A DNA stretch of 64,000 nt from Tepidanaerobacteraceae bacterium (GCA_024655905.1 JANLFP010000001.1:248001-312000); one strand, 5' to 3'. Shown: positions 40,693 to 64,000, numbered from the stretch's first letter. The notes: a model not told the origin generated them from the sequence alone. Program-made: numbers and translations.

Positions 40693-40824
40693 AAGCATAT
40701 TCCCCCTTCATTCTTCTGATTAGACATTCAGGCTGCAAAATGCATCGCCCTCAGATAATGAAAATGCTGCTTCGTATTCCTGGGATAGTTGCAACAATTT
40801 CTCAATTTTGCAATAGATTATAAA

Positions 40825-44430: not shown

Positions 44431-44492
44431 ATAAAAATCTATCCCCCTGAAATTTATGATTTGAAAAATATCCATGAAGATATTTTTGAAAT

Positions 44493-48709: not shown

Positions 48710-48779
48710 GAGGCATTCTCCTCGCAAGTGTTTTAATGCCATAAATACGCGTTTCATGGAAAAACCTATTACACGCACA

Positions 48780-49786: not shown

Positions 49787-51697
49787 TTATTTTTTAGTGA
49801 TGCGATCTATCCAGTCAAATAGTTCATCGAGGTCGTAATCTCCACCGTGGCCTTGACCCCAGGGCAGCATGAAGTCAACGTCGAATCCCTCGTTCTCCAG
49901 CTTTGTGGCTAAGATGACGGGGATTGCAAGCGAAGTATCCCTATCCACGGCTCCATGGCGGATCCGCCAGTACTTAGCGGTGGTGGTCCCCTCTGTACCG
50001 ATATAGTTCATTGGGTTCATCATCTTGATAATTTTTGCATCGGCAATCGAGCCGTCTTTTGTGCTATTCTCCTGGCTGAATTTTGTAAAGTGCTGGTTGT
50101 CAACGGCAGCGGTGCCGAACAGGCTGTTTTCAAAACTGCTTAAGTCCAAAGCGTCAAAGGCTGGGGCTGGCTTCATTCTTGTGGCATATACGGCATATTT
50201 TTCAAAGTCTATGTCTGTGACTGTTCCATTGTTTATGGTTATCCAGTCAAGTCCCGAAAGATCCGTTCCATTGTCCAGCGCTTTTTGCGCCGATGCGATT
50301 ACGAAAGACTTGACGTAGTCTTTAAAAGTACCGTCGCCGTTTAAATCCAGTGTCAAAGCAGTCCCATCAGCCTTCTTAAGTCCCAGACTATTCAAATACG
50401 CTGGAAACATAGCTTTCAGCTGGTTAGACACCTTGATCTGATCTTCCGTCAATGTGCCTTTTGTACCCCTGAAGTCGTAATCGTTTATGCCGTTAAAAAG
50501 CCACTCATAAGCCGTGTCCGCATTATCCAGATTCGTGATGGGGCAGTAACATGAAGCGGCAAAGATGTCGTCCGGCTCGTTTGCCGCACCGATTTCTTCC
50601 AGATAAGGCGCATAATCCGCATTGTTGCCTGTTGCTCCGAGCAGCGCCGATAGCGCGCCGCCCGCGCTTGTGCCATTGGAGACGATCCTTTCGGCGCTGC
50701 CGGGCATGATCTCGTCGTTATAACGCAAGTAGCGGACAGCTGCCTTAAGGTCCACGATGCATGCAGGCGCCTTGCCGGTAAATGTGCCATTTTCTCCCTG
50801 CAGAGTGCGCCCGCGCGCTCCGGGCGCCGCCACTACATAGCCTTTTGACAGGGCCATGAGTATTGCATTTGGATTGCCGGCATTGTCTACGCCTGGGCTC
50901 CCGGGTTTTGCAGGCATGTAGCCGCCCACCATGTTCGGGAAAAAGATTGGGGCCGTTTCTGCATTATAGTTGCCGATGGACTTGCCCCCAAAGTACTCCT
51001 CGGGGATGTAAATGTTCATCACCTCATAATCGGCATCCACGGGATTAGACACATAAACGATATTTTCATAGGCACGGTAGGCAATGGTTTTTCCTTCAAA
51101 ATCCGAAGTCTTCACAGCGTAATTCGAATCATTGAACACAAGGCTTATCTTTCCGCTGGTAATGACCGCGGCGTTTTTGCTGCTGTCATAGGCCACGGCA
51201 AATCCAAAAGCAGTGCCAAGGTCGCGCAGCTTAAAAAAGTTATTGCCTCCGATTATGTATTTGCTTGCATTTACATTGAGCCCGTTCACCTTGAATACCC
51301 AATTGCTTGAAGCACAAGCGGCAGATTTATCAGCACCTATGGATAGTTCCCCACCCACAGGCTGATATGCTTCACCTGTTTTGGCGATGATAGTATTTGC
51401 ACCAGCGTCATAGTCAACGGAAAATTGGGATTTTGTCCCGCTCAGCAGCCGTGCAATGTCACGAAGCTTGAAGTAGTTGTACCCATTGATGTTATAGGCT
51501 TCAACCCTAACTTCTCTGCCGTCTACAAAGACTTTCTGCGGGCTGGCTATTGCCTTGTCTGCGCCTTGAGTCGCGGAAATCGCGGCAAGCGGGCTGGCCA
51601 TCACCCCGGCAGCATCCGCAGCCGCATATGCCATAGTAAACGGCATAATCATAAATGACAAGGCAATGATTACAGCAAGCAATTTCTTAACATTCAT
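49787..51697 (-). CDS. Secreted tannase (subtype B)-like alpha/beta hydrolase with stalk domains
   Basis: The 636-residue protein has a signal peptide (LLAVIIALSFMIMPFTMAYA), two copper-amine-oxidase-N-like stalk repeats (55-105 VFVDGREVRVEAYNINGYNYFKLRD; 133-180 NWVFKVNGLNVNASKYIIGGNNFFKLRD), and a hydrolase domain from about 200. The nucleophile elbow is GTSAGG (S344); the acid is in HGAVDRDTSLAIP (D585 or D587) and the histidine in WGQGHGGDYDLDELFDW (H617). SNGTSAGGALS and WRIRHGAxDRDTS are what I recall for subtype B tannases/feruloyl-type esterases. It may release gallate- or phenolic-type acids outside the cell. A sigma-54 promoter lies at 51789-51804. Start ATG 51697. Confidence 0.82.
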   Translation of the reverse strand: MNVKKLLAVIIALSFMIMPFTMAYAAADAAGVMASPLAAISATQGADKAIASPQKVFVDGREVRVEAYNINGYNYFKLRDIARLLSGTKSQFSVDYDAGANTIIAKTGEAYQPVGGELSIGADKSAACASSNWVFKVNGLNVNASKYIIGGNNFFKLRDLGTAFGFAVAYDSSKNAAVITSGKISLVFNDSNYAVKTSDFEGKTIAYRAYENIVYVSNPVDADYEVMNIYIPEEYFGGKSIGNYNAETAPIFFPNMVGGYMPAKPGSPGVDNAGNPNAILMALSKGYVVAAPGARGRTLQGENGTFTGKAPACIVDLKAAVRYLRYNDEIMPGSAERIVSNGTSAGGALSALLGATGNNADYAPYLEEIGAANEPDDIFAASCYCPITNLDNADTAYEWLFNGINDYDFRGTKGTLTEDQIKVSNQLKAMFPAYLNSLGLKKADGTALTLDLNGDGTFKDYVKSFVIASAQKALDNGTDLSGLDWITINNGTVTDIDFEKYAVYATRMKPAPAFDALDLSSFENSLFGTAAVDNQHFTKFSQENSTKDGSIADAKIIKMMNPMNYIGTEGTTTAKYWRIRHGAVDRDTSLAIPVILATKLENEGFDVDFMLPWGQGHGGDYDLDELFDWIDRITKK

Positions 51698-51788
51698 TTT
51701 TTTCCCTCCGTTTCATCCTTTTTTTGCCGGGTCTTGCCGGCGTAAAATCTAGGATAACAATACTTTTAATATTCTCATTTTTATATAT

Positions 51789-51804
51789 AGCAAGAAATAT
51801 GCCA
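51789..51804 (-). promoter_or_regulatory. Sigma-54 promoter of the tannase-like gene
   Basis: On the minus strand TGGCATATTTCTTGCT matches the -24/-12 consensus with GG and GC 10 bases apart. It is 92 bp upstream of the start codon. Confidence 0.8.
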
Positions 51805-51825
51805 TTTAGCATAATTCAAGTATTT

Positions 51826-51893
51826 TGCGGATTTTCGCATTTTATTATTGCAATTAAAAAATTCAATTTGCAGCTTTTATTTCATTTTGAAAT
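51826..51893 (-). promoter_or_regulatory. Upstream activator sites of the tannase promoter
   Basis: TGCGGATTTTCGCA (51826-51839, a near-perfect palindrome) and ATTTCATTTTGAAAT (51879-51893, palindrome) lie 20 and 75 bp upstream of the -24 element. They match the sites at the other three sigma-54 promoters and help define the shared pattern. Confidence 0.68.
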
Positions 51894-51943
51894 CTTGCAT
51901 TTTTTCGGCTGACCGGCATTTATGCTACATAAAAAAACGAAGA

Positions 51944-52786
51944 TCAAATAATCTTCGATATGCTTTCAAGGTCAATAATTAAAGAATTCAATTCCTGAAT
52001 TGCTCCAGATATATCATTTGAGGTCAATGCTTGATTTTTTGAAAGCTCATAAGTTTTTTGGATTTCAGCACTTATTCTTGACATTTTCTGCTTTATTCCT
52101 TCTGTAATCGCCTCTATTTTTTTTACCGAATCAGCGCTGCTTTTTGCCATTTTGCGTATTTCTTCCGCTAATATATTAAAACCTTGCCCATTTTTGCCTG
52201 CTCGAGTGGCTTCAATTGCAGCATTTATCCCCAGAATGTTTGATTTTGATGCAATATTTTTAATAAAATATAGAATCTCTTCAGTCTCATGCATTTTTTC
52301 TTCCATCTCTTTTTTCATTGCATCCACAATTTCCATGCATGTCGATAATTCTTGAGCAGAAGCAGCCAATTCTTCTGCGGAAGCAACAACTTCTTCACTT
52401 GTAGCAGATAAAGTATTTATAGCCTGTTCTAATCTTTCCTGATTCTTTAAGCTCATTCCTAGAGCTATACACCCAATTGTTTTTCCTTTTTCATCTTTAA
52501 TGGGAACAGATATTGATTTAAAAGGAACTCCATACACTTCTTTAGGCAATACATATTTTTGAATTTCTCCCGTTGTTATAACCCTTCTGATGCCGCTGTT
52601 TTCTGGTATTTTTTTCCCTTTTTGCTGATCAAGATTGAATTCTCCTGTAGAGAAATTTGCTAAAAAGCATTCCGTATCGGTTATTGAAATATTGCAATCC
52701 AAAGGTATAAGCTGTATAAAAATTGGCATGACCTCTATTAAAGTTTCCAAAATTGACTTTTTTTCCATTTCACCCCGGCCTTGCAT
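51944..52786 (-). CDS. Soluble methyl-accepting chemotaxis-type protein
   Basis: The 280-residue protein has no membrane segment. Residues 1-115 form a small sensory domain (IPLDCNISITDTECFLANF ... VYGVPFKSISVPIKDEKGKTIGCIALG), followed by a coiled coil and the MCP signalling tip (about 181-213: KSNILGINAAIEATRAGKNG and FNILAEEIRKMA). It matches the short cytoplasmic receptors of Clostridia. It may sense an internal metabolite and talk to CheA. ATG 52786 follows AGGAGG at a normal distance. It is convergent with nothing and lies downstream of the tannase promoter region, reading in the same direction. Confidence 0.85.
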   Translation of the reverse strand: MQGRGEMEKKSILETLIEVMPIFIQLIPLDCNISITDTECFLANFSTGEFNLDQQKGKKIPENSGIRRVITTGEIQKYVLPKEVYGVPFKSISVPIKDEKGKTIGCIALGMSLKNQERLEQAINTLSATSEEVVASAEELAASAQELSTCMEIVDAMKKEMEEKMHETEEILYFIKNIASKSNILGINAAIEATRAGKNGQGFNILAEEIRKMAKSSADSVKKIEAITEGIKQKMSRISAEIQKTYELSKNQALTSNDISGAIQELNSLIIDLESISKII

Positions 52787-53073: not shown

Positions 53074-53430
53074 TCAGCTCAAGTGTTCCGGCAGTGGAGG
53101 CCCGTAAGCCCAGACTATTTTAAAGGGTTCATCGCCTGTATTCACTATCTCATGTTTTACGCCCACCGGCGAAAATATGGCTGTACCGGGGGTGAGTTCA
53201 TATTCCTCGCCGTCTGCAATCAGCTTGCCCTTGCCGGAAATGACATACATGGCTTCTTCCTGATTTTCATGGCTGTGAAGCGGAATCCTGCTGCCAACTT
53301 CAGTTATATTTACTCCCATGGATATTTTCGTGGCACCAACGGTTTTGTTGCATATAAGCACCTTGGAAACCCTGGGCGGTATCCTTTTTGTACCTTCAAT
53401 TTCGCTTTCTTTTACAATCAGTTTTGCCAT
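53074..53430 (-). CDS. Small cupin-domain protein
   Basis: A single cupin barrel of 118 residues. Metal-binding motif 1 is PLHSHENQEEAMYVISGKG (two His, Glu) and motif 2 ends PVGVKHEIVNTGDEPF with a third His. Such proteins are isomerases, dioxygenases or sugar/acid binding factors; the sequence does not tell which. It has no signal peptide and lies 40 bp after the MoaD-like gene at the tail of the AOR cluster. Start ATG 53430 has AAAGGAG upstream. Confidence 0.88.
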   Translation of the reverse strand: MAKLIVKESEIEGTKRIPPRVSKVLICNKTVGATKISMGVNITEVGSRIPLHSHENQEEAMYVISGKGKLIADGEEYELTPGTAIFSPVGVKHEIVNTGDEPFKIVWAYGPPLPEHLS

Positions 53431-53470
53431 TTAATTTTGCTCCTTTCATTTTTTAATATTTATTCCAATA

Positions 53471-53692
53471 TTATCCCCCGTCCATGTAGGGGAACAATTC
53501 CACTGCGTCATTATCTTTTATGATGCAATCCTTCTGCCGCCATCTTCCGTTAACGATTACCATGCCCACATCATCTTCGGGCACTCCTATGGCATTTAAG
53601 ATTTCCTTAAGACAAGTTTCTTTACTCAAATCAAGCTCGATCTCTTTTTTTTTAAAATTTTTTATCAGGTGATGCGCCCTTATTCTAACCAT
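53471..53692 (-). CDS. MoaD/ThiS-like sulfur carrier protein
   Basis: A 73-residue beta-grasp protein ending in MDGG: the C-terminal diglycine is what MoaE/MoaB-type enzymes activate for sulfur transfer. The body (EIELDLSKETCLKEILNAIGVPEDDVGMVIVNGRWRQKDCIIKDNDAVELFPYMDGG) fits MoaD. It follows the AOR gene by 16 bp; AOR-family genes often have a private MoaD, probably for building the tungsten/molybdenum pterin. Start ATG 53692 is preferred over GTG 53701. Confidence 0.85.
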   Translation of the reverse strand: MVRIRAHHLIKNFKKKEIELDLSKETCLKEILNAIGVPEDDVGMVIVNGRWRQKDCIIKDNDAVELFPYMDGG

Positions 53693-53708
53693 CGCTCTCA
53701 CCGTCTTT

Positions 53709-55412
53709 TTATAAAATAGCTTTGCTCATTTCTTCAGGCGTCAAATCAAAAACGGAATTTGTCGGGGGCAGCGGTTCCACATAACAGAATTCGGGAAGCT
53801 TATCCTGAGCGGGGCTTATGCCTGCCTTCAAATTAAATTCTCTTTCGATTTTCAAAGTATTGATTCCTATATCCCATACGTCATTTGCGCTTATGTTTAC
53901 ACCAAGCAGAAAGTTTATCATTGATGACATCGTCGAGGGATCCTTGAACAATGGCCCGCGCGCAAAAATGCAAAAGCCCAGGCTGTCAAGGGTCGTCATC
54001 TTCTTCTGCAAGTTGTTTGACAGTTCTCCCTGTTTATCACGTCCCAAAGGATCAACTTCGTTTCTTGAGCCGAATGCATTTCCTGCCGTATGGTCCGCAC
54101 CCATGGGCGATGTTGCATAAAGCACACCATTGCCCTTCAATGCCCTCGGGTCATACCCCGGAAAGCCCTGCCCTTTTGCCGCCGGAACTCTGCTGATTCC
54201 GAGCACTTTCCCGGTAATTTCGGCGCCATTGCCAAGAACTTTTCCGAGCACCGTGTCTTGCCTGATTTCCTCAAGCAGCTTCATGCATCCTTTCTCATCG
54301 CCGAATTCAGCCAGTCCCGCTTCAATAGCCACGCCGAGAGTTGCTCCCATTTCGATTGTATCGAGTCCTATATCGTCGCACATTCTATTCAATTTTGCAA
54401 CCGAGTCCAGATTGTCAAATCCCAGATTGGACCCCAAAAGGGCTATTGTCTCGTATTGAAGGGTGGATACAATCTTTTGGCCGTTTTCATCCGGATATAT
54501 ATTGCTGCACTGGATTACGCATCCCGCCATGCACGGAATTCCCGTCTTTCCGCAGCCTCCTCTTTTCGTAATGGTTTCATGCATCACATCGCCGCTCAAG
54601 TTTTCTGCATATTCAAATGACCCGTAACGGAAATTCTTGGTCGGAAGAGCTCCCATTGCATTTACAGCCAGCACAATCCCCGCAGTCCCATTTTTCTTAT
54701 ATGCAACACCGGTCTTGGGATCCGACAACAATTCTTTGTTGATTCTTCTCGCAACTTCCATAAATTCATTTTTTGAATGATAATCTATTTGCCTGTTGCG
54801 GTTATCATGCACTACAACCGCTTTTATGCCTTTGCTGCCCATTACGGCTCCTACGCCGCCCCGGGCGGCGAATTTTAGTTCTCCGGTCGGGTCTGTAGCA
54901 GCAATAGACGCGGCCCTCATGCCCCTTTCGCCGGCAGGTCCTATGCACAATATTGCTATATCTTTGCCGTAGATTTCATATAATCTGGCAACCGTATCGT
55001 ATGTGCCGAGATGCCTGAGTTCATTATGCGCGGCAAGCTTGATATTTTCGCCGTCGATTTCCAGCACATGACAATTATCATCATTCGGCAGCCCTTCGAT
55101 TATAATCGCCTTAACATCATTCCTAGCCAGCGCCGTGCCGATTACCCCGCCGCAGTTGGCTTCCTTTATTCCGCCTGTCAGAGGGCTTTTGCATCCCACA
55201 GAAAGCCTTCCCGCGCTTGAAACGGCAGTACCTGCCAGAAGGCCGGGAGCCAGGACCAATTTGTTGAACTTGCCCAAAGGATCGCATGTCGGTTCAACCT
55301 CATCAAAAATTATTCTGGAAGTCAGAGCCCTGCCGCCCAGGATTTTATATTCTTCGTTGCTTGATATGCCGATTTGCTTGTTGCTCATATTCAATCGCAC
55401 AATCTTATTCAA
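53709..55412 (-). CDS. Aldehyde:ferredoxin oxidoreductase family (tungsten-pterin enzyme)
   Basis: The 567-residue protein shows AOR family blocks: N-terminal GGRALTSRIIFDEV, LVLAPGLLAGTAVSSAGRLSVGCKSPLTGGIKEANCGG (first pterin site), ARGGVGAVMGSKGIKAV, the cluster cysteines C294, C298, C302 (GIPCMAGCVIQC) and C481 (TLDSLGFCIF, second pterin region). It would oxidise an aldehyde to the acid, or run in reverse, with ferredoxin. The C294-x3-C298-x3-C302 spacing is slightly wider than the CxxC form I know. The TTG start (55412) follows AGGAGGGG. It is flanked by tctA, MoaD and a ferredoxin gene. Confidence 0.92.
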   Translation of the reverse strand: MNKIVRLNMSNKQIGISSNEEYKILGGRALTSRIIFDEVEPTCDPLGKFNKLVLAPGLLAGTAVSSAGRLSVGCKSPLTGGIKEANCGGVIGTALARNDVKAIIIEGLPNDDNCHVLEIDGENIKLAAHNELRHLGTYDTVARLYEIYGKDIAILCIGPAGERGMRAASIAATDPTGELKFAARGGVGAVMGSKGIKAVVVHDNRNRQIDYHSKNEFMEVARRINKELLSDPKTGVAYKKNGTAGIVLAVNAMGALPTKNFRYGSFEYAENLSGDVMHETITKRGGCGKTGIPCMAGCVIQCSNIYPDENGQKIVSTLQYETIALLGSNLGFDNLDSVAKLNRMCDDIGLDTIEMGATLGVAIEAGLAEFGDEKGCMKLLEEIRQDTVLGKVLGNGAEITGKVLGISRVPAAKGQGFPGYDPRALKGNGVLYATSPMGADHTAGNAFGSRNEVDPLGRDKQGELSNNLQKKMTTLDSLGFCIFARGPLFKDPSTMSSMINFLLGVNISANDVWDIGINTLKIEREFNLKAGISPAQDKLPEFCYVEPLPPTNSVFDLTPEEMSKAIL

Positions 55413-55429
55413 TCCTATCCCCTCCTGAT

Positions 55430-56902
55430 TTACCGATTGTTTTCCAATTTCTCCATTTTAGACAAAATAAGCGACTGTGTAACGAAAGTGGCTATAATTA
55501 TTATCAATAAAATTAAACTCAGCGGGCGGGTGACAAAGGATGCGAGCAGGCTGCCCATACTTCCCGTAATAATCAGGGCCTTCCTGAAATTGGTTTCTAT
55601 CATTGACCCTAGTATCAGTGCCAGAACTATAGGGCTTACCGGAAAACCGGCTTTTTCAAATAGATATCCGATGAAACCGAATATAAGCATGAACAGCACA
55701 TCGTATATGTTGTTCTGCAGCGCATATGAACCTACAACGCACAGAATGCTTATAAACGGTATGAGATACCACTTCGGAAGGCTAAGCATTCGCAGCATGA
55801 CGTTACTTCCCAGAATCCCCAGAAAATAGGCTATGAACTCGCTTATAAGCAAAAATACGATTATAAGATAAAAATAGTTTTTCTGGGTCATCATGAATGT
55901 CGGCCCCGGCAGAATGCCATGCAGATAAAATGACCCCAAGATAACGGCTGTTATGGAATCCCCCGGAATTCCCAAGGTAAGCATCGTTGTAATTGCTCCG
56001 CCTATGGCTGCATCGTTGGCCACTTCAGGCGCTGCTACCCCTTCATACGCCCCTTCGCCAAAGGGCCTGCTGGGATTTTTTACAAGCTGCTTAGTAAATC
56101 CATACGCCACAAGAGAACCAATATCCCCGCCGGTCCCTGGAAGCAGGCCTATAATAGCCCCGATAGGAGCGGACCATGTCATGCAGGCCAGAGTCTTTTT
56201 TATGATATCAAACTTTGGGAACAGGTCTCTAATCCTGTAGCGTTCATTTTCAATTTTAAAAGTCTTTTTGCTGCTTAGTGAAACGAAAACTTCCTTCATT
56301 CCAAACAGGCCTATCATGGCCACAATATAATTGATGCCGCCGCCAAGCAGCTTAGATCCGAACGTAAATCTCATCAATCCAGTTATGGGATCCATCCCTA
56401 TCATGGCTATGATCAGGCCCACGCATGTGGCAGCAATTCCCTTTAGAATGTTGCCCTTGCTCAAAACCGCTATCAGGGTCAATCCCCACAGAGTAATGAG
56501 AAAATATTCCTGGCTCCCGAATTTCAGCGCAACTTCGCCGAGCAGGGTCCCAAATACCACGAGAAATACAATGCCGAACAATCCTCCTATCAAACTCACA
56601 AACAGTGCTATGCTCAGGGCGTTTGCGGCTTCACCCCTTTTCTTCAAAGGATAGCCGTCAAATATGGTCGAGACCGCAGCTGCAGTTCCCGGTATGTTTA
56701 AGGTTATTGCCGAAATGGAACCCCCCATGACGCCTCCGCAAAAAGCGCCGATTATGAAAGCCAGCGCGTCAACCATGTTCCAGCCAAAAGTCAGCGAAAC
56801 CACCAGAACTATTGTCATCGTGACCGTAAGGCCCGGCAGCGCTCCCATGATTAATCCGATTATCGCGCCTACTGTCATGTAAATCAGCAATAAAATGTTC
56901 AT
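55430..56902 (-). CDS. tctA: Tripartite tricarboxylate transporter large permease (TctA)
   Basis: A 490-residue, roughly 12-helix permease with the TctA hallmark near the N-terminus (MGALPGLTVTMTIVLVV ... FIIGAFCGGVMGGSISAITLNIPGTAAAVSTIFDGYPLKKRGEAANAL) and a second repeated G-x-x-P-G-x-G (GLLPGTGGDIGSLVAYG). It works with TctB and the TctC binding protein. ATG 56902 with GGAGG 7 nt upstream is chosen over the ATG at 56920. The tctB gene precedes it by about 20 bp. Confidence 0.93.
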   Translation of the reverse strand: MNILLLIYMTVGAIIGLIMGALPGLTVTMTIVLVVSLTFGWNMVDALAFIIGAFCGGVMGGSISAITLNIPGTAAAVSTIFDGYPLKKRGEAANALSIALFVSLIGGLFGIVFLVVFGTLLGEVALKFGSQEYFLITLWGLTLIAVLSKGNILKGIAATCVGLIIAMIGMDPITGLMRFTFGSKLLGGGINYIVAMIGLFGMKEVFVSLSSKKTFKIENERYRIRDLFPKFDIIKKTLACMTWSAPIGAIIGLLPGTGGDIGSLVAYGFTKQLVKNPSRPFGEGAYEGVAAPEVANDAAIGGAITTMLTLGIPGDSITAVILGSFYLHGILPGPTFMMTQKNYFYLIIVFLLISEFIAYFLGILGSNVMLRMLSLPKWYLIPFISILCVVGSYALQNNIYDVLFMLIFGFIGYLFEKAGFPVSPIVLALILGSMIETNFRKALIITGSMGSLLASFVTRPLSLILLIIIIATFVTQSLILSKMEKLENNR

Positions 56903-56923
56903 TACATATCCTCCTCGCATTCC

Positions 56924-57406
56924 CTAAGGCAGTATTACGTGGAATATGCCGCTGAAAACAAAGTATACAGCTGGAACCGTAATCAGGCATGGGATAAGGA
57001 TTTTTACGACCTTGTCGGCAGACCGTTTTGCCTCATGCAGCAGATACATTATTGCAAGCATATATATAATTGTGCCAGTAAGAAAATGCAGGTTTTTTAA
57101 AACAAGGATGTAAGCAGCCGTTCCCGCAAAATATGCCGCCACCGCTATTAAATCCTTTATGTTTTCAGGTTCATCTTTGTCTGTGCCTTTTTCATGAGAG
57201 CTTTTTTTCATTTCTCCGGCAATAACCATTATCAAACTGATTAAAAGAACCAAATCAATGAGAAAGGGGAATATTATGGGTGAATCCACGGTCAGAAGCG
57301 GAATTCCCTGGGAAAAAACGAAATATGCTATATCCCCAAAAGCCAGAAGACATACGGCTGCAATCACTATAATCGATACTTTGGTCAAAAGTTTCGATTC
57401 TCCCAC
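56924..57406 (-). CDS. tctB: Tripartite tricarboxylate transporter small permease (TctB)
   Basis: Product of about 160 residues with four hydrophobic segments (VSIIVIAAVCLLAFGDIAYFVF, FLIDLVLLISLIMVIAGEM, DLIAVAAYFAGTAAYILVL, KILIPCLITVPAVYFVFSGI), the normal TctB size. TctB proteins have few conserved residues, so the call rests on topology and the tctC-tctB-tctA context. GTG 57406 with AAGGAG 8 nt upstream is preferred; the GTG at 57415 overlaps that site and the ferredoxin stop. Confidence 0.85.
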   Translation of the reverse strand: MGESKLLTKVSIIVIAAVCLLAFGDIAYFVFSQGIPLLTVDSPIIFPFLIDLVLLISLIMVIAGEMKKSSHEKGTDKDEPENIKDLIAVAAYFAGTAAYILVLKNLHFLTGTIIYMLAIMYLLHEAKRSADKVVKILIPCLITVPAVYFVFSGIFHVILP

Positions 57407-57411
57407 CTCAG

Positions 57412-57606
57412 TCACTCCTTGCCTGCATTTTCATCAGCCTCAAATATTGCTTCCTGAGGGCATACATTCATGCAGGCGTAACATTCCACGCACACGTCTG
57501 CAGAAATTTCGGCCTTGCCGTTATCCGTCATATGTGCTGCTCCAGTGGGGCATACCGTGGTGCATACCTGATCGCCCGTGCATTTTTTCCTGTCTACTTT
57601 CAGCAT
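57412..57606 (-). CDS. Ferredoxin with Asp in the first cluster motif (7-Cys + Asp)
   Basis: A 64-residue ferredoxin. The first cluster has C9-x2-D12-x2-C15-x3-C19 (CTGDQVCTTVCP), with Asp where a Cys would normally sit, as in Pyrococcus furiosus ferredoxin (from memory: CIGDAIC). The second cluster is complete (C39, C42, C45, C49 in CVECYACMNVCP), each motif ending in CP. The Asp site could bind a 4Fe-4S of altered potential or a 3Fe-4S cluster. It sits between tctC and tctB, in a row with the AOR gene, for which it may be the electron partner. Start ATG 57606. Confidence 0.9.
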   Translation of the reverse strand: MLKVDRKKCTGDQVCTTVCPTGAAHMTDNGKAEISADVCVECYACMNVCPQEAIFEADENAGKE

Positions 57607-57662
57607 TTATAATCCTCCTTGTAAGATATGGTTAGATATAAAATCCGAAGATTGCTACGATG

Positions 57663-57693
57663 CATCCGCCCTCTAAGTTTTAGAGGGCGGATG
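57663..57693. terminator. Strong hairpin between tctC and the ferredoxin gene
   Basis: CATCCGCCCTCTA (57663-57675) and TAGAGGGCGGATG (57681-57693) are a perfect 13 bp inverted repeat. No T-run follows on the minus strand, so it probably acts as a partial terminator or 3' stabiliser that leaves more tctC than downstream mRNA, common behind binding-protein genes. Confidence 0.7.
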
Positions 57694-57727
57694 TTTTCGG
57701 GTTTTAAATTATCCTTGGATTTTAATA

Positions 57728-58804
57728 CTATTGTTGAGGCTTGGGTATCCCGAAATCTGCCGGAGAATGCTTGGCACCGCCGGCATCATATAAAATCCAT
57801 GCCGATTTTGAAGTCCAGTCGTTAAGGAATTTCACCGCTTCATCACCGCTGTAATCTATGGGAACCAGATACAGACTCTTGCAGTAATCGAGCCATTTCT
57901 GATCCTTTATTGCCTCATCCATTGCACTCTTCAACACATCCACGACATCCTGTGGCGTTCCTTTTGCCGCAAACAGGCCGAAATACGGACCGTATGGCAG
58001 ATATTTCGACAGTGCAGGATACAGCTTTCCTATCGGCTCTATCTTTTCCAGACCGGAAATGGGTTCATTGGTAAAGGATGCCAGTATCTTCAGTTTGTTA
58101 GCCTTATACGCTTCAACCATGGACTGCACCATCTCAATCGTAGCGTCAACCTGTCCTCCCATGACCGCCGTTACAGCGGGACGGCCTCCATCAAAGGGGA
58201 CAAAAGTGAATTTGCACCCGAGTTCTTTTTCAAGGAGCAGTCCGGAAATATGGGGTACGGTTCCGGGACCGGCCGTCCCAATCCTCAATTTCCCCGGGTT
58301 TTCTTTTGCATATTTCACAAAGTCCTCAGCTTTTTCGAATTTCGAATCCGGAGGAACAGCCAAAACAGGTATGGCTTGAGCTACCAATTTGATAGGAATG
58401 AAGTCTTTGGTCGGATTCAAATCGATGACGCCCATCGTCTGCCATATTGACATTATTTCTGACCCGAAGAACAGCGTATAGCCATCCTTGGGCTGCGACA
58501 GCACGTTTGAAGCTGCAGTGGCGCTGGAAGCACCCGGCATGTTCGTTATTCCTATTCCCACGCCAAGCTTCTCCTGCAGTATGGGCAAAATGCCCCGCCC
58601 GATAAGGTCTGTAGGACCTCCCGCTGCAAAGCCTATAACTGCATTTATAGACCTTTCGGGGTATTTGACCTTTGTTTCTTCTGTTTTATTGCTTGCACCA
58701 TTTTGTTGCTGCTGCTCCTTATTCGGCTGACTGCACCCTGTTAAAACAATCGAAAGCACAAACACTGCCAGTAGGACCAGAACAAGAAGGTTGATTTTTT
58801 TCAT
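57728..58804 (-). CDS. tctC: Tricarboxylate transporter binding lipoprotein (TctC/Bug family)
   Basis: A 358-residue binding protein with lipoprotein signal (LTGC, C24) and Gln/Asn-rich linker. Family blocks: INAVIGFAAGGPTDLIGRGILPILQEKLGVGIGITNMPGASSATAASNVLSQPKDGYTLFFGS, LRIGTAGPGTVPHISGLLLEKELGCKFTFVPFDGGRPAVTAVMGGQVDATIE and FGLFAAKGTPQDVVDVLKSA. The GAGG-type carboxylate site is of Bug type. Substrate unknown (dicarboxylic, aromatic or other acid). Start ATG 58804 follows AAGGAGG. It is followed by a strong hairpin, then ferredoxin, tctB and tctA. Confidence 0.93.
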   Translation of the reverse strand: MKKINLLVLVLLAVFVLSIVLTGCSQPNKEQQQQNGASNKTEETKVKYPERSINAVIGFAAGGPTDLIGRGILPILQEKLGVGIGITNMPGASSATAASNVLSQPKDGYTLFFGSEIMSIWQTMGVIDLNPTKDFIPIKLVAQAIPVLAVPPDSKFEKAEDFVKYAKENPGKLRIGTAGPGTVPHISGLLLEKELGCKFTFVPFDGGRPAVTAVMGGQVDATIEMVQSMVEAYKANKLKILASFTNEPISGLEKIEPIGKLYPALSKYLPYGPYFGLFAAKGTPQDVVDVLKSAMDEAIKDQKWLDYCKSLYLVPIDYSGDEAVKFLNDWTSKSAWILYDAGGAKHSPADFGIPKPQQ

Positions 58805-58900
58805 TACTCAGTCTACCTCCTTTTTTTATGGGGTCAAACAAAAATTTTTTATCATACCCCCCTTCCTCACAATATTCCCCTAACAACCACTGACATGCTG

Positions 58901-59662
58901 TTATATATACATCTTCAGAGGGTCGATGCGATTTCGCAGCAGATAAATTTCCTCATCGGTGGGTTCACCGGTTTTTGCCGCATTATCCGGAATATGAACT
59001 TTTACTCCGGTGTTTTCCAGGACATCCCGAGCGGCAACACCGGGATGCAGCGATTCTATTTTCAAAACCTTTTCATCCTCATCAAATCCGAAAACGCACA
59101 GATTCGTAATTATTTTAATGTATTCGCATTGCGGAACGCCTTCTTTGCGGCGGGTATCCAAGCCTCTCAAATGTCCCACGCTTGTGATGAAATCCACGTT
59201 TTCCACCAGTTTTCTCTTGTCGTGCTTCATTATCACCAGAATCCGCCTGGCAAAGCATGCTATATCAGCAGCCCCGCCGCTGCCATTTATATGCCTGCTG
59301 CCGGACTCGGTTTTCACCAGGGTGCTGTTTATGTTTCCGTATTTATCAACCTGCAAGCCGCCCAAAAAGCCAACATCGATAAGACCTTTCTGCAGAACAT
59401 GGCCCAGCGTGCCTACAAAACTTGTAAAGTGCTCGGTGTTATGCCAGAGCCTGGGGTCAGCAATCCCAACTCCCATTTCGACCGCATCGGGATTTATTAC
59501 ACCTATTTCGTAAACTATATTTAAGCCCGGAGCATGGGTTGCTTTTGCAAGCAGGGAAGCTATTTGCGGCAAGCCCAATCCTACCACCACATTATCGCCG
59601 TCTCTCAAAAGCCGCGATGCAGTTACAGCCATCAGTTCATTGGTTGTATACTCCACGGTCAT
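58901..59662 (-). CDS. CoA transferase, beta subunit (glutaconate CoA-transferase type)
   Basis: A 253-residue class I CoA-transferase subunit. E52 in YEIGVINP is at the place of the catalytic glutamate (E54 of the Acidaminococcus beta subunit, from memory). Blocks: NVVVGLGLPQIASLLAKATHAPGLNIVYEIG, GTLGHVLQKGLIDVGFLGGLQVDKYGNIN, GSGGAADIACFARRILVIM. It moves CoA from acetyl-CoA or another donor to a carboxylic acid. ATG 59662 has GAGGTGA upstream. The alpha gene ends only 10 bp before it. It lies 96 bp ahead of tctC, so uptake is tied to activation. Confidence 0.85.
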   Translation of the reverse strand: MTVEYTTNELMAVTASRLLRDGDNVVVGLGLPQIASLLAKATHAPGLNIVYEIGVINPDAVEMGVGIADPRLWHNTEHFTSFVGTLGHVLQKGLIDVGFLGGLQVDKYGNINSTLVKTESGSRHINGSGGAADIACFARRILVIMKHDKRKLVENVDFITSVGHLRGLDTRRKEGVPQCEYIKIITNLCVFGFDEDEKVLKIESLHPGVAARDVLENTGVKVHIPDNAAKTGEPTDEEIYLLRNRIDPLKMYI

Positions 59663-59672
59663 AAAATTCACC

Positions 59673-60581
59673 TCATGCTTTATATCCAAATACTGGATCT
59701 GCTTTAATGCCATTCAGTCTGGCAAGTCCGCCCGCTTTTTCCAAAAACTCGTTGTGATTCCGAGTGCCGAAAACGTATTCTTCCAGGAATTTCTTGTATT
59801 CTCCAGCATTTTTATTTGTTTTTGCATAATTTGCCAGGAAATCCTTATCATAGTCATATGCCTTATAAACAGCGGTGGGAAAAGCACCGTAAGGAACTTC
59901 TATTACCGCATGGGTGTACATGCTTGGTATTGCCACTTTTTCAGGGTTCCTCTTCACAAACTCTGTGGACACTATTTTTTCCACAGTTACGTACAGTTTT
60001 TTCGCAGACTTGGCCATTTCTACATCCCACAGCGGTCCCTCTATTATCACATTTCCCTTTTCGTCTGCATACTGTGCATGAATGACTGCAAAATCCGGCT
60101 GCAGCGACTTTAAATATACGTATTTCTCACCATCGAAGGGAGATGTTTCTATTTTTATCGAATCATCATTTTTGCGGATTAAATCCCTGAGCATGTCGGT
60201 GCCCAAAAGAGATTTGGTAGGAATAAATGGGATTCCCATAGAACCTGCGAGAAATCTCAGGGAGATGCTCAATCCGCTGTATTCTCGAATATCCAGTCTG
60301 CCCTGATCTATGGCCTCGTTTATTCGTTCCAGCCTCCCGAACCTGTCCAGCGAACCGCCGCTATAGGCGAGCTTCTTTACGGCGCCCGCACCCACTAGCA
60401 AGTCCGTGTCCATTCCGGCAACAGTTTGATAAACATTGAGTTCTTTCTTGCCCTGCCTTATTATTTCATTCACAAAGGCAATGGGGTTCCTCGCAATAGC
60501 AAATCCGCCCAATGCCAAATGAGCGTTACTTTCTGGGATTTCTCCCACCGCCTGGCTCAATTCCATTACTTTGCTTTTCAA
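59673..60581 (-). CDS. CoA transferase, alpha subunit (glutaconate CoA-transferase type)
   Basis: A 302-residue partner subunit. Blocks: ALGGFAIARNPIAFVNEIIRQGKKELNVYQTVAGMDTDLLVGAGAVKKL (nucleotide-type CoA site), YSGLSISLRFLAGSMGIPFIPTKSLLGTDM, ADEKGNVIIEGPLWDVEMAKSAKKLYVTVEKIV and MYTHAVIEVPYGAFPTAVYKAYDYDKDFL. Start is TTG 60581 with AGAGGTGA upstream. Together with the beta subunit it forms a heteromer. It is 6 bp after the preceding unknown gene, suggesting a shared transcript. Confidence 0.85.
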   Translation of the reverse strand: MKSKVMELSQAVGEIPESNAHLALGGFAIARNPIAFVNEIIRQGKKELNVYQTVAGMDTDLLVGAGAVKKLAYSGGSLDRFGRLERINEAIDQGRLDIREYSGLSISLRFLAGSMGIPFIPTKSLLGTDMLRDLIRKNDDSIKIETSPFDGEKYVYLKSLQPDFAVIHAQYADEKGNVIIEGPLWDVEMAKSAKKLYVTVEKIVSTEFVKRNPEKVAIPSMYTHAVIEVPYGAFPTAVYKAYDYDKDFLANYAKTNKNAGEYKKFLEEYVFGTRNHNEFLEKAGGLARLNGIKADPVFGYKA

Positions 60582-60587
60582 GGCAGC

Positions 60588-61028
60588 TCACCTCTTTACA
60601 ACATCGGAAGTGGCCATTTTTGCCAGCGTCAGCCTGCAATATTCGTTTTCTTTTCCAATCGGCAAAAGTTCCGGGGAAAGTCCAGTGTTCATTTCAAGAG
60701 AATGCATGAATACATTTGCAATGGGGCACCCCAATGGCTGCATGCCTTCGCGGTCAAAATAATCCCTTATATTTTTTAAACAGCAATTTTTTACTGAAAT
60801 GCCCAGCGAAATGTCGTCTTCCTTGAAATCTATTTCTTCGCAGAAATTGTTTTCTGTAAGATATTTTTTAATATTTTCTTTATCCGCAAGTTTTTCACCC
60901 AACTTTTCTTTAAAAAAGTTGACTCCTGCCAGCGTGAGCCTGTACCGCGCTCCCCTTCCGCGCTCATTCCAGAATTCCTTCTGTACTTCGAAAATCAGTT
61001 CGTCTTTGAATTTGTTGAGTTCATCCAT
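60588..61028 (-). CDS. Hypothetical protein with conserved-looking cysteines
   Basis: I do not recognise this 146-residue product. The N-terminus (FKDELIFEVQKEFWNERGRGARYRLTLAGVNFFKEKLGEK) reads like a helix-rich segment and the C-terminal part has cysteines FCEEIDF, SVKNCCLKNI, GCPIANVFMHSL and EYCRLTLAKM (C82-C83 pair, C100 and C131 region), so a small metal or Fe-S site is possible. There is no signal peptide or transmembrane helix. It starts ATG 61028 with GGGAGG upstream and lies 21 bp after the nitroreductase-type gene and 6 bp before the CoA transferase, so it probably works in the same pathway. Confidence 0.7.
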   Translation of the reverse strand: MDELNKFKDELIFEVQKEFWNERGRGARYRLTLAGVNFFKEKLGEKLADKENIKKYLTENNFCEEIDFKEDDISLGISVKNCCLKNIRDYFDREGMQPLGCPIANVFMHSLEMNTGLSPELLPIGKENEYCRLTLAKMATSDVVKR

Positions 61029-61049
61029 GTAAAAAACCTCCCATCCGTA

Positions 61050-61709
61050 TTATTCTGTATAATAGCGGTTTCCAAACTTCTCTTTGAAAACCAGTTCCTG
61101 CAAAGGTATTCTGGGGCGAGCATTTGGTATCCTGGCAGGCTGACCAACCGATATTATGCTCACTACCTTGTATTCCTCGGGAATATCAAAATAGGATTTT
61201 ATCTTCAGTTCATCCCTGATATCGATGCACGGAGCCACCAGCCAGCAAGCGCCTAAATCCAGACTGGTCACGGTCAGCAGTATGTTTTCAATGGCGGCGG
61301 AACAATCAAAAGGCAGGTCCCACACATCTTTTTTCCCAATAACTATCAGGATCAAATCGGACTCGCCGACAAAACCCGAGACATCTCCTGATGTAAGCTT
61401 TTTAAATGCCGCCAGTTTTTTCTCTTCATCCTGCAAAGTCTTAAATCTTTCCTGCATCTGTTTGCTCAAGAATTCTCCGGTAAACCTTCTTCCGCTGGCA
61501 TTTTTGGATATTTTCGCCAGGTAATTCTTGCCTTCCTCATCCTTTACAACAATGAACCTCCACGGCTGAGCATTCTCCCCTGAAGGGGCCTGTCTCCCGC
61601 TCTCAAGGATCAATTGAAGGTCCTCTTCAGACACCTTGTCTTTAGTATAGTTCCTTATACTCCTTCGGTCCGCGACGACCTGAAAAAAGATATCCTTTTT
61701 TTCCCCCAT
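61050..61709 (-). CDS. Nitroreductase-family flavoprotein
   Basis: The 219-residue protein shows FMN-binding blocks: DRRSIRNYTKDKVSEEDLQLILESGRQAPSGENAQPWRFIVVK, AAIENILLTVTSLDLGACWLVAPC and the end VVSIISVGQPARIPNARPRIPLQE. These enzymes reduce nitro groups, quinones or enoates with NAD(P)H, or are oxidases. An electron-transfer or enoate-type role would suit the catabolic cluster (inference). ATG 61709 is chosen for its 7 nt spacing from GGAGG over ATG 61715. It is 97 bp behind the creatininase gene. Confidence 0.9.
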   Translation of the reverse strand: MGEKKDIFFQVVADRRSIRNYTKDKVSEEDLQLILESGRQAPSGENAQPWRFIVVKDEEGKNYLAKISKNASGRRFTGEFLSKQMQERFKTLQDEEKKLAAFKKLTSGDVSGFVGESDLILIVIGKKDVWDLPFDCSAAIENILLTVTSLDLGACWLVAPCIDIRDELKIKSYFDIPEEYKVVSIISVGQPARIPNARPRIPLQELVFKEKFGNRYYTE

Positions 61710-61806
61710 AATCATTCCTCCTATAAATTCAATTTGCTAATTTCCCACAAAAGTGCAGTAGCATATGTCTCAAGGAAGGCTGGCTTTGCGGCCTTTTAAA
61801 TAGATT

Positions 61807-62763
61807 TTATGCAGGATGATGAATTGCGTATATGCTTTTGCCTCCGTTGAATGGACCTTTTATTACCGCCTCGATTAAATCCTTATCCCGTTCAGTCACG
61901 AGATTTATATCCGGCAGTTTTCCCGGCGGGAATTTTTCCCTGATATCGTTGTGCAGCTTGATTAAATAATCAAACAAAGCATCCAAGCCTGCTTCCGCCT
62001 TTGAGGCATCGGCGAGCGTGGGCTTGCCTATTACCCCTTCGGGATACAGTATGACCTCCAGACCGCCGCATCCTATCTGGGCATGGCCCGGAATGGGATA
62101 TTGGTATATATCCCCGCCTTTATCGATGTGGCCTTCGGGCATGAATCCCGTGGGAACGGTGTCTTCCATCTTTTCCTTGTCGTTCATTTCGGGAAATAGA
62201 GCCAGCGAATATGACGCTTCGACCTCATCCGCGTGCCTGAACGCGGTTTCAAAGGGACCGCCGTGGGCCTTGTCTTTTATATAATCGTGAATTACTGTAG
62301 GCCAGTTGACAAATGTGATGACAGCCGGCACTTGGTATATCTTGCCGAACTGCTGTATAGCATTGGGTATAACGTATTCCTGCCCATGGCCGTTGATGAG
62401 GATTTGCTTCCTGAAACCCGCATTCCAGTAGCCCGCTATTATCGCTCTAAGATAATTTGTGAAGGTTTCTTCAGGAATAATCACGGTGCCAGGCATGCCC
62501 ATCTGATTCCAGGGATGGGAACCGAACCATATGGGCTGAGAAACCGTACACCCGACCTCGCGCGCCACAGTCTCGGCCATTCGCGTCACCAGAAATGTAT
62601 CCTCTCCGTAGCACTGACCCTTGCCGTGATATTCCGTGCTTCCAACGGGTATAATTATGATATCGTTTTGCTTCAATCTTTCAGCCACCTGATATCCCGT
62701 CATGTTTTGAAAATAGATGCCATCTGCTTTGTCCATGGACCCTTTCGAAATTTTGTACTTCAT
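61807..62763 (-). CDS. Creatininase-family amidohydrolase (3-dehydro-scyllo-inosose hydrolase-like)
   Basis: A 318-residue metal hydrolase. E44, H46 and D55 (PVGSTEYHGKGQCYGEDTFL), H126 and E129 (ILINGHGQEYVIP) and E181 area (HADEVEASYSLALFPEM) match the metal-binding pattern of creatininase, which uses Zn or Mn. I recall very similar proteins labelled 3-dehydro-scyllo-inosose hydrolase (inositol route), chiefly from KGSMxKADGIYFQNMTG and AHGGPFETAF; no inositol genes are near, so the substrate is open. Start ATG 62763 with GGAGGTG upstream. A sigma-54 promoter and activator sites precede it. Confidence 0.82.
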   Translation of the reverse strand: MKYKISKGSMDKADGIYFQNMTGYQVAERLKQNDIIIIPVGSTEYHGKGQCYGEDTFLVTRMAETVAREVGCTVSQPIWFGSHPWNQMGMPGTVIIPEETFTNYLRAIIAGYWNAGFRKQILINGHGQEYVIPNAIQQFGKIYQVPAVITFVNWPTVIHDYIKDKAHGGPFETAFRHADEVEASYSLALFPEMNDKEKMEDTVPTGFMPEGHIDKGGDIYQYPIPGHAQIGCGGLEVILYPEGVIGKPTLADASKAEAGLDALFDYLIKLHNDIREKFPPGKLPDINLVTERDKDLIEAVIKGPFNGGKSIYAIHHPA

Positions 62764-62833
62764 TTTAGCACCTCCATTTTTGTAAAGATCGCATTTTATT
62801 TATAAAAATTGCAATCATCATATTTTTTAATAA

Positions 62834-62849
62834 AGCAAGAAGTATGCCA
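62834..62849 (-). promoter_or_regulatory. Sigma-54 promoter of the creatininase gene
   Basis: On the minus strand TGGCATACTTCTTGCT, GG and GC 10 bases apart, 71 bp upstream of the start codon. It is nearly identical to the one at 51.79 kb. Confidence 0.8.
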
Positions 62850-62870
62850 TTTGAATTGATTTGTGCATTA

Positions 62871-62938
62871 TGCGGCTTTTCCCAAATCATCACGCAATCA
62901 GAATTTCGATTTGAAATATGAAAATTTTCATTTTGAAA
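62871..62938 (-). promoter_or_regulatory. Upstream activator sites of the creatininase promoter
   Basis: Contains TGCGGC...CACGCA (62871-62896, a gapped inverted repeat around a 14-nt middle), ATTTCGATTTGAAAT (62903-62917) and TTTCATTTTGAAA (62926-62938). The same set occurs at the other sigma-54 promoters. The region lies between the end of the dehydrogenase gene and the creatininase promoter. Confidence 0.68.
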
Positions 62939-62969
62939 TACTTTTTGCTGAATACATATATGGCAAATC

Positions 62970-64000
62970 TCAGAGCCTAGCAACGCCATAACGCTCTGCC
63001 AGGCTATTAAGGGTCTTGATGACATCCCGCTCTACCGGCAACCCTTCTTTTCTTCTTTTTTTCTCCAGGTTATGCTCGATCTCGCCGGGCGTGTAAATGT
63101 CATTGTTGTCTATCGCCGGTAAAGATTTTATTTTTCTAATTACCGCATCTATATTGGTTTTGAACCTTTCCACATCGATGAAGCTGGATATGTTTACAGC
63201 GCAGAAAATATGGCCGGTATTGGAAGGCCCATTTGTGTCAGTAATGTTTTTCACCTCTCCTGTCAAGCAGCTGTCGGTCAATATCCCGCACAGTATGTCT
63301 ACAATCAGCGACAGGCCCGAGCCTTTGACGCCGCCAATCGGAATAAGGCTGCCTTTCAACGCTTCCTGCGGATTGGTTGTGGGTTTGCCTTCGGCATCCA
63401 GAGCCCAGCCGAATGGAATCTCTTCTCCCGTCAATGCGGCATAGCGTATCTTCCCCCGTGCGACCACCGACATCGACATGTCGAGAACGATAGGTATTTC
63501 TTTGCCTGCAGGGACCGCTATGGATATGGGATTTGTCCCGAGCAACGGTTTTTTTGTCCCGTACGGCGCGATGGCGGGCGAAGCGTGGGTAAGGACTATT
63601 CCTATCATATTTTCATTCATTGCCAGCATGGAATAATACGAAGCTATCCCAAAGTGGTTGGAGTTTCTTACTCCGACCATCCCTATTCCGTATGTTCCCG
63701 CTTTATCCATGGCGGCTTTCATTGCCATGTATCCGGCCACCTGTCCGAATCCGTTTCGCGCATTCAGCAAAGCTACTGCGGCAAAGTTTTTTTCAAATTC
63801 CATTTTAGCGCAGGGATCGAGTACGCCTTTTTCTATTCTTTCTATATAAGTGGGCAGTCTCACGATGCCGTGAGATTTTACGCCGCGCAAATCGGCGCAT
63901 ATCAATGATTCTGTTATAATTTCCGCGTTCTGATTCTCCACGCCTGTTTTCAACAGAATATTGGCGCTAAAATCTTTTAAGATATCGATATCGTACAGCA
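62970..64000 (-). CDS. Malate/L-lactate (ureidoglycolate)-type dehydrogenase, 5' end outside window
   Basis: The frame is open to the right edge, so the first codons are outside; 343 codons are seen. Family blocks of the Ldh2/MDG2 dehydrogenases: SLICADLRGVKSHGIVRLPTYIERIEKG (catalytic His in SHG), VALLNARNGFGQVAGYMAMKAAMDKA, GVRNSNHFGIASYYSMLA, LTHASPAIAPYGTKKPLLGTNPISIAVPA and GGVKGSGLSLIVDILCG. It interconverts a 2-hydroxy acid and a 2-oxo acid with NAD(P)H. Its place at the start of the catabolic row suggests oxidation of an imported hydroxy acid (inference). Its end is 136 bp upstream of the sigma-54 promoter. Confidence 0.9.
   Translation of the reverse strand, partial: LYDIDILKDFSANILLKTGVENQNAEIITESLICADLRGVKSHGIVRLPTYIERIEKGVLDPCAKMEFEKNFAAVALLNARNGFGQVAGYMAMKAAMDKAGTYGIGMVGVRNSNHFGIASYYSMLAMNENMIGIVLTHASPAIAPYGTKKPLLGTNPISIAVPAGKEIPIVLDMSMSVVARGKIRYAALTGEEIPFGWALDAEGKPTTNPQEALKGSLIPIGGVKGSGLSLIVDILCGILTDSCLTGEVKNITDTNGPSNTGHIFCAVNISSFIDVERFKTNIDAVIRKIKSLPAIDNNDIYTPGEIEHNLEKKRRKEGLPVERDVIKTLNSLAERYGVARL

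Follow-up and report, generated by a model that had tools for sequence, protein, structure and literature searches.

The 64,000-nucleotide stretch of DNA analysed here (the window) comprises bases 248001-312000 of contig 11 of a Tepidanaerobacteraceae bacterium whose 3.2-Mb genome comprises 37 contigs. Its last part, from position 53074 to just beyond 64000, is filled by 13 densely packed minus-strand genes, whose products were assigned to families with Pfam and NCBIfam profiles (Table 1). They encode an Ldh2-family dehydrogenase, an IolN-type hydrolase, a nitroreductase-family flavoprotein, a 146-residue protein with no sequence family (U146), a two-subunit GctAB-like CoA-transferase, a TctABC transporter, a ferredoxin, an aldehyde:ferredoxin oxidoreductase (AOR), a ThiS/MoaD-type sulfur carrier and a cupin. 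Most of the intergenic gaps are under 125 bp and several are negative; the exceptions are 207 bp between the Ldh2 and IolN genes, which contain a sigma-54 promoter, and 287 bp between the cupin gene and that of a methyl-accepting chemotaxis-type protein (MCP). The genes and families listed in the original prediction are all there and were confirmed by the profiles, with the nitroreductase as the member that it had not flagged. Our conclusion is that these genes, together with others in the window, are almost certainly a conserved, co-regulated catabolic pathway and not a chance grouping, and we propose that this pathway degrades gallate.

Conservation across genomes was followed with U146 as a tracer for the loci of the module. 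Of the 398 genomes of the phylum 9 contain it, and a genome collection yielded 60 loci (a few genomes occur in both), spanning Bacillota, Atribacteria, Spirochaetes, Synergistes, Chloroflexota and Desulfobacterota. About 60 genomes of several phyla contain the core genes; their sources include digesters, groundwater, termite guts and thermal habitats. Same-strand neighbours of U146 include the nitroreductase in all 64 loci and GctA in 50 of them. A census of gene content in 20 loci of at least 12 kb (a first group, drawn outside Chloroflexota and Desulfobacterota) gave the IolN-type hydrolase in 16, U303 (described below) and Ldh2 in 15 each, the cupin and the ferredoxin in 14 each, fumarase and malic enzyme in 13, AOR with ThiS in 10, GctAB in 10-12 and TctA/TctC in 8-9. 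The enzymes are the constant part from locus to locus and the transporters (Tct, TRAP or ABC) the part that differs. Distant homologues of the IolN-type hydrolase, the nitroreductase and U303 are also found on plasmids, only in unrelated contexts. The comparison supports the original prediction in treating the cluster as a single catabolic unit that serves an imported acid and in which CoA-transferase, AOR, ferredoxin and MoaD belong together. That prediction had named a break-up of the cluster in relatives as the outcome that would speak against it, and in the neighbourhoods we compared the cluster is not broken up.

The unit is, however, wider than the 13 genes first described. The best relatives, including Sedimentibacter hydroxybenzoicus, carry four further module genes, which encode U303 (a TIM-barrel protein), the alpha and beta subunits of fumarase, and malic enzyme, and the same four genes lie in the window 45 kb from the main operon, at 6442-10267. 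UBA6113 (L033) and S. hydroxybenzoicus (L040) have nearly identical complete operons, in which everything stands in one run, U303-FumA-FumB-malic enzyme-Ldh2-nitroreductase-U146-GctA-GctB-TctC-ferredoxin-TctB-TctA-AOR-ThiS-cupin, with IolN placed after either Ldh2 or the cupin. Across the set of relatives U303 is 61-90% identical, a conservation above that of U146. The tannase gene and a regulator gene just past the window edge extend the unit further.

What ties these separated genes together is a common promoter architecture. Reading their upstream regions revealed a palindrome, TTTCANNNTGAAA, about 90-100 bp upstream of a -24/-12 sigma-54 element, and this arrangement precedes five units: U303-fumarase-malic enzyme, the main operon, Ldh2, an operon that begins with a UroD-like methyltransferase gene and encodes a TRAP transporter, and the tannase. 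The perfect palindrome occurs 4 times in the window against 0.18 expected. The palindrome and sigma-54 pair occurs 6 times in the whole genome, with none for a reversed control, and five of the six are the promoters just named; the sixth (C34:59558-59668, or L135:8559-8669), which may or may not belong to the regulon, is followed some 430 bp downstream by the gene of a sodium:solute symporter. The same architecture is seen upstream of the module in L022, L024, L033, L036, L040 and L046. It also stands ahead of the tannase gene in G021 and in Thermovorax (G017/G409), two relatives whose tannase and module are carried by separate contigs. It was not found at the tannase promoters of the Atribacteria, Desulfobacterota and Chloroflexota genomes, and the link between tannase and regulon is established only in the host's own order. 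Scans for sigma-70 promoters and terminators gave nothing above chance. The regulon would be controlled by the PrpR-type sigma-54 activator encoded beyond Ldh2, which may also be the protein that binds the palindrome.

The tannase gives an indication of what the pathway may consume. It is a secreted subtype-B enzyme that matches 6yq4 with E=1e-162 and the Lactobacillus plantarum tannase 4j0c with E=7e-133. The serine of its GTSAGGA motif, an Asp/His pair and a Lys/Glu pair align as identical to those of the L. plantarum enzyme, where we take them to be the catalytic triad and the galloyl-binding residues. In the phylum a tannase is present in 10 of 398 genomes and the module in 9, and both are present in 3 where 0.23 would be expected (P=0.0009, hypergeometric, uncorrected for kinship). 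Strong tannases also accompany the module in Atribacteria, Desulfobacterota and Chloroflexota genomes, and among 400 Chloroflexota a tannase with E<1e-100 occurs solely in the module-bearing centre genome. With a tannase under the same control as the module, gallate is the probable substrate. The tannase gene adjoins an MCP-type gene in two genomes (49787-52786 of the window; G411, L115:441-3389), which suggests taxis towards a tannin-derived product.

Table 1. Genes and promoter elements of the module and its regulon; positions are those of the window unless a locus is given.
Feature	Position	Strand	Evidence and remarks
Ldh2-family 2-hydroxyacid dehydrogenase	62970->64019	-	Pfam Ldh_2, 413 bits; 5' end 19 bases past window edge
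IolN-type creatininase-family hydrolase	61807-62763	-	NF041098, 554 bits (cut-off 245)
Nitroreductase-family flavoprotein	61050-61715	-	PF00881
U146, 146 aa	60588-61028	-	no Pfam/NCBIfam match
Class I CoA-transferase alpha subunit, GctA-like	59673-60581	-	PF01144
Class I CoA-transferase beta subunit, GctB-like	58901-59713	-	PF01144; catalytic Glu E69
TctC periplasmic receptor	57728-58804	-	PF03401
2[4Fe-4S] ferredoxin	57412-57606	-	7 Cys + Asp12
TctB	56924-57415	-	PF07331
TctA	55430-56920	-	PF01970
AOR	53709-55412	-	PF02730 + PF01314 (AFOR_N + AFOR_C)
ThiS/MoaD-type sulfur carrier	53471-53701	-	PF14451/PF02597; C-terminal GG
Cupin	53074-53430	-	PF07883; conserved neighbour in relatives
MCP, between module and tannase	51944-52786	-	PF00015
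Secreted subtype-B tannase	49787-51697	-	NF041556, 680.6 bits (cut-off 300); N-terminal Cu-amine-oxidase-N1-like domain
U303, TIM-barrel protein	6442-7353	+	annotated elsewhere as U32 peptidase; adjoins module in most relatives
Class I fumarase alpha subunit	7495-8361	+	PF05681; adjoins module in relatives
Class I fumarase beta subunit	8325-8930	+	PF05683
Malic enzyme	9020-10267	+	PF00390/PF03949
UroD-like methyltransferase	13853-15007	-	first gene of TRAP transporter operon
Sigma-54 -24/-12 element of IolN...cupin operon, TGGCATACTTCTTGC	62835-62849	-	
Palindrome upstream of IolN operon, TTTCATTTTGAAA	62926-62938		perfect; second, imperfect copy 62904-62916
Sigma-54 element of tannase, TGGCATATTTCTTGC	51790-51804	-	
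Palindrome of tannase promoter, TTTCATTTTGAAA	51880-51892		perfect
Sigma-54 element of U303 operon, TGGTACAAAAGTTGC	6380-6394	+	
Palindrome of U303 operon	6284-6296		perfect
Sigma-54 element of UroD-like/TRAP operon	15064-15078		
Palindrome of UroD-like/TRAP operon	15156-15168		perfect
Sigma-54 site and palindrome of Ldh2	L007:12060/12162		outside window
PrpR_N-PAS-sigma54-Fis regulator	L007:12189-14135		beyond Ldh2, outside window

Active-site residues are conserved in the AOR and the CoA-transferase. In the IolN-type hydrolase E44, H46, D55 and H126 are invariant in 29 sequences. Both CoA-transferase subunits best match glutaconate CoA-transferase, and the catalytic glutamate of the GctB-like subunit is invariant in 45 sequences. 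The terminal GG required of a sulfur carrier is invariant in 14 sequences of the MoaD-like protein, which presumably serves the cofactor of the AOR. The AOR itself can be aligned over its full length with aldehyde oxidoreductases (E=1e-79). It has invariant equivalents (E321 and H441) of E313 and H448 of PfAOR as well as four invariant cluster cysteines, and its Cx3Cx3C motif is longer by one residue. The nearest NCBIfam model for Ldh2 is L-sulfolactate dehydrogenase, with a score under that model's cut-off. The original prediction was correct that an aspartate replaces the second cysteine of cluster I in the ferredoxin (CTGDQVC). Since close relatives carry cysteine there, the alignment indicates a lineage variant and not a defining feature of the module; the alternation of Asp and Cys at this position (loci L021-L029) offers a natural series for comparing Asp- and Cys-ligated clusters. 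The host genome encodes six AORs. One of the others (L135:1945-4114, genome contig 34) has its own ThiS-like protein and adjoins two transketolase halves and zinc alcohol dehydrogenases. In two Atribacteria the AOR of the module is apparently replaced by a distant one of 26% identity (L038:14573-16426 and L044:14422-15789), in L038 together with a type III CoA-transferase.

For the two proteins without an assigned function we relied on predicted structures. The AlphaFold2 model of U146 (pLDDT 82) has a V4R/TRAPP-like fold, with Z scores of 8.4 to TRAPP, 8.1 to YslB and 8.0 to the phenol-sensor domain of MopR and with no match at the level of sequence; phenol-sensing V4R domains as a group gave Z scores of 7.2-8.0. 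An alignment of its homologues shows C82, C101, E120 and C131 to be invariant, a set that resembles the Cys3Glu zinc site of the phenol sensors. We propose that U146 may be a partner of the ring reductase. U303 is predicted to be a confident TIM barrel (pLDDT 90) to which many barrels match equally well (CutC, RuBisCO-like proteins, class II aldolases, methylisocitrate lyase). Because its barrel resembles so many families, the lyase role that we propose for it rests on gene context. A 30%-identical U303 homologue was also seen on an Enterobacter chuandaensis plasmid (L092), in an apparent small-molecule biosynthetic cluster with an aminotransferase, an iron-containing redox enzyme, an M14 peptidase and an MFS transporter.

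Taken together, the genes suggest the following route, in which the substrate is probably gallate (3,4,5-trihydroxybenzoate) or a close derivative. Tannins would be hydrolysed to gallate by the co-regulated tannase and the gallate imported by TctABC. The nitroreductase and U146, fed by ferredoxin, would then add two electrons to the ring, and the product would be 5-carboxy-2-hydroxycyclohexane-1,3-dione ('dihydrogallate') or its CoA ester; the hydroxyls of gallate at positions 3 and 5 stand in the same relation as those of resorcinol, and ferredoxin-dependent reduction of such a meta-dihydroxy aromatic is the reaction of resorcinol reductase (PMC10470551). The IolN-type enzyme would open this 2-hydroxy-1,3-dione by retro-Claisen hydrolysis to leave a CO-CH2OH end. 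The known substrate of IolN in the Thermotoga maritima inositol pathway, 3-dehydro-scyllo-inosose, is also a 2-hydroxy-1,3-dione whose hydrolysis leaves a CO-CH2OH end. The cupin, acting as a ketose/aldose isomerase, could convert this end to CHOH-CHO, and the AOR would oxidise the aldehyde to the acid and pass the electrons to ferredoxin, covering the cost of the ring reduction. The intermediates of the inositol pathway are listed in PMC5931981. Ldh2 would next oxidise 2-hydroxy-4-carboxyadipate to 4-carboxy-2-oxoadipate (C7H8O7), which U303 would cleave to pyruvate (C3H4O3) and fumarate (C4H4O4), for a net reaction up to this point of gallate + 2 H2O -> pyruvate + fumarate + 2[H]. Fumarase and malic enzyme would finally turn the fumarate into pyruvate and CO2.

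The electrons and carbon of this route balance. With C7 split into C3 and C4, the presence of fumarase and malic enzyme would no longer be a puzzle. The AOR would yield two reduced ferredoxins, as many as are consumed in reducing the ring, and this would explain why the module has a ferredoxin of its own. CoA transfer by GctAB could activate either the aromatic acid before its reduction or the C7 acid before its cleavage, and the tight linkage of GctAB to the nitroreductase and U146 favours the former. We see about an even chance for the chemistry that would be new here, which is direct reduction of gallate or galloyl-CoA by a ferredoxin-driven nitroreductase with a V4R-like zinc protein, opening by an IolN-type enzyme, an AOR that regenerates exactly the ferredoxin spent, and a new TIM-barrel lyase. 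The complete assignment of steps, in which every reaction is conjectural, above all those of the ring reductase and U303, is somewhat less likely than not to be right.

Several observations weigh against this proposal. Most genomes with the module have no tannase (9 of 47 have one at E<1e-20), so the tannase may be an optional addition and the substrate something else. The likeness of the U146 model to V4R domains is one of fold, at a Z of about 8, and the predicted fold of U303 matches many unrelated barrels; we know of no TIM-barrel enzyme that performs a retro-Michael cleavage to pyruvate and fumarate. The place of GctAB in the scheme is not firm, and several loci lack it. Some of the promoters that the palindrome is used to connect are also those in which it was first noticed, so that its presence there is partly circular; the independent part consists of the UroD promoter, the module promoters of relatives and the tannase promoters of the two relatives, which were not used to define it.

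The original prediction named no specific substrate but listed candidate acids in general terms (hydroxy, aromatic or inositol-derived), and had not linked the tannase, the U303-fumarase-malic enzyme unit or the sigma-54 regulon to the cluster. Apart from gallate, the alternative that we would take most seriously, though it is a good deal less probable, is another polyhydroxy- or methoxy-aromatic acid, such as a resorcylate, protocatechuate or syringate, degraded by the same logic of reduction and opening, with the tannase and the UroD-like methyltransferase merely widening the feed. The minority of module genomes with a tannase would fit such a substrate, as would the UroD-like genes that flank the module in four loci (L025, L026, L035 and L047; 36-38% identity), in one of them with a corrinoid protein, and the resorcinol reductase known biochemically (PMC10470551). 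However, 3,5-dihydroxybenzoate would give a methyl ketone on ring opening, which would leave nothing for the cupin, AOR and Ldh2 to do; protocatechuate yields no 1,3-dione upon two-electron reduction; and the tannase, whose promoter is of the shared type, releases gallate. A cyclitol or cyclitol acid of the inositol, quinate or shikimate type is unlikely. The hydrolase is IolN (3-dehydro-scyllo-inosose hydrolase) by NF041098, and 3-dehydroshikimate is an isomer of dihydrogallate, but the module lacks an inositol dehydrogenase (IolG/IolM), IolO, AroD and AroE, and a cyclitol would have no need for a ferredoxin and a nitroreductase. A distant IolN paralogue (about 40% identical in G362, 304-323 bits) does occur alongside zinc alcohol dehydrogenase, Gfo/Idh or IolO-like genes in G000 and G362, where these clusters are separate from the module. 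We rejected the inositol pathway as the principal interpretation on these grounds, its partner genes being found beside the distant paralogues and missing here. An inositol-type cluster with two IolN paralogues and zinc alcohol dehydrogenase, Gfo/Idh and IolO/IolE-like genes is found at L096:5470-13369 (genome contig 2), apart from the module.

Less likely still is the scheme of the original prediction itself, in which CoA transfer activates the acid that has been imported and the AOR handles the corresponding aldehyde/acid pair. The frequent neighbourhood of GctAB and U146 speaks for it, as do the type III CoA-transferases that L029, L036 and L038, all without GctAB, carry within or close to the module. 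CoA transfer is not universal, however: L025, L026 and L035 have neither enzyme nearby while otherwise keeping the core (L035 also has no local AOR), and the scheme assigns no function to five conserved genes, those for the nitroreductase, U146, the IolN-type hydrolase, the cupin and Ldh2. We regard it as highly improbable that the AOR is a ring reductase comparable to BamB of class II benzoyl-CoA reductase and that the nitroreductase and U146 do something else. The AOR and BamB do belong to one superfamily, but BamB was the last match, weak, partial and N-terminal, against the end-to-end alignment with aldehyde oxidoreductases and the invariant PfAOR equivalents. Other assignments were considered and rejected: the PF01144 pair as a ring hydrolase of the IpdAB type, given the retained catalytic glutamate and the far better Gct matches; heteroaromatics (dipicolinate, citrazinate) and tartrate/malate-type acids, none of which employs all the genes or accounts for the tannase; and the hydrolase as dihydrophloroglucinol cyclohydrolase, which belongs to the cyclase/isatin-hydrolase family and not to the creatininases (PMC10470551).

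Other parts of the window were noted in passing. Positions 10507-25629 hold another catabolic region, with two TRAP transporters, a phosphotransbutyrylase/butyrate kinase-like pair, a ketopantoate-reductase-like gene, a 2-oxoacid:ferredoxin oxidoreductase-like pair and a LysR regulator; its UroD-like gene has the common sigma-54/palindrome promoter. Three very large, repeat-rich surface-type proteins (3063, 1188 and 1216 aa) with SLH-like segments are encoded in tandem at 25977-44475, and a hybrid sensor kinase (1057 aa) adjoins a response regulator with a SARP-like C-terminus at 44620-48778.

Tannins rank among the most abundant polyphenols of plants, and in the absence of oxygen they are generally considered to be degraded by way of pyrogallol and phloroglucinol. 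If the gallate proposal is true, a separate anaerobic pathway for gallate would be spread over several phyla. It would also point to genes that may encode a ferredoxin-dependent reductase acting on a meta-hydroxylated aromatic, and would supply functions for an uncharacterised V4R-like family, for a TIM-barrel family misnamed 'U32 peptidase' and for a distinct clade of IolN. We found no paper describing this gene set in the open-access literature, which makes for a weak negative.

In the known anaerobic route gallate is first decarboxylated and the pyrogallol then converted by pyrogallol-phloroglucinol transhydroxylase (PMC10470551). A UbiD-type gallate decarboxylase was not found in the genome, whose single UbiD sits with UbiA and a prenyl synthase (non-UbiD decarboxylases were not searched), nor was the transhydroxylase, the sole gene of the DMSO-reductase family encoding a formate-dehydrogenase-like protein of 672 aa without an Fe-S partner subunit. 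In Eubacterium oxidoreducens, Pelobacter acidigallici and Clostridium scatologenes the classical route continues with phloroglucinol reductase and dihydrophloroglucinol cyclohydrolase. The decarboxylase/transhydroxylase part of this route looks absent from the genome, the two later enzymes not having been searched for. The two routes would share a logic, in that a trihydroxybenzene is reductively dearomatised to a cyclic 1,3-dione and then opened by metal-dependent retro-Claisen hydrolysis. The proposed one, however, would need neither decarboxylation nor transhydroxylation, and would use ferredoxin and a flavoprotein in place of an NADPH reductase, a creatininase/IolN-family hydrolase in place of a cyclase-family one, and give pyruvate and fumarate instead of acetoacetate and acetate.

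Other known systems are also comparable in part. Aerobic meta-cleavage of gallate (DesB/GalA, through 4-oxalomesaconate to pyruvate and oxaloacetate) also splits C7 into pyruvate and a C4 dicarboxylate, but needs O2, and the C4 product here would be fumarate. The CoA-transferase has its best match for both subunits in GctAB of Acidaminococcus fermentans, with the catalytic glutamate kept, and the IpdAB-like hydrolases of the GctAB fold are more distant. With the inositol pathway of T. maritima (IolG-IolM-IolN-IolO) the module would share an IolN-type hydrolase acting on a 2-hydroxy-1,3-dione; it has no IolG, IolM or IolO, and the dione would arise by ring reduction where there it arises by oxidation of an alcohol. 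In the fermenting clostridia with a ferredoxin-dependent resorcinol reductase and a 1,3-cyclohexanedione hydrolase, ferredoxin-linked reduction of a meta-dihydroxy aromatic is likewise followed by hydrolytic opening. To our knowledge no genes have been assigned to these two clostridial enzymes, and the nitroreductase-U146 pair is a candidate for an enzyme of the resorcinol reductase kind.

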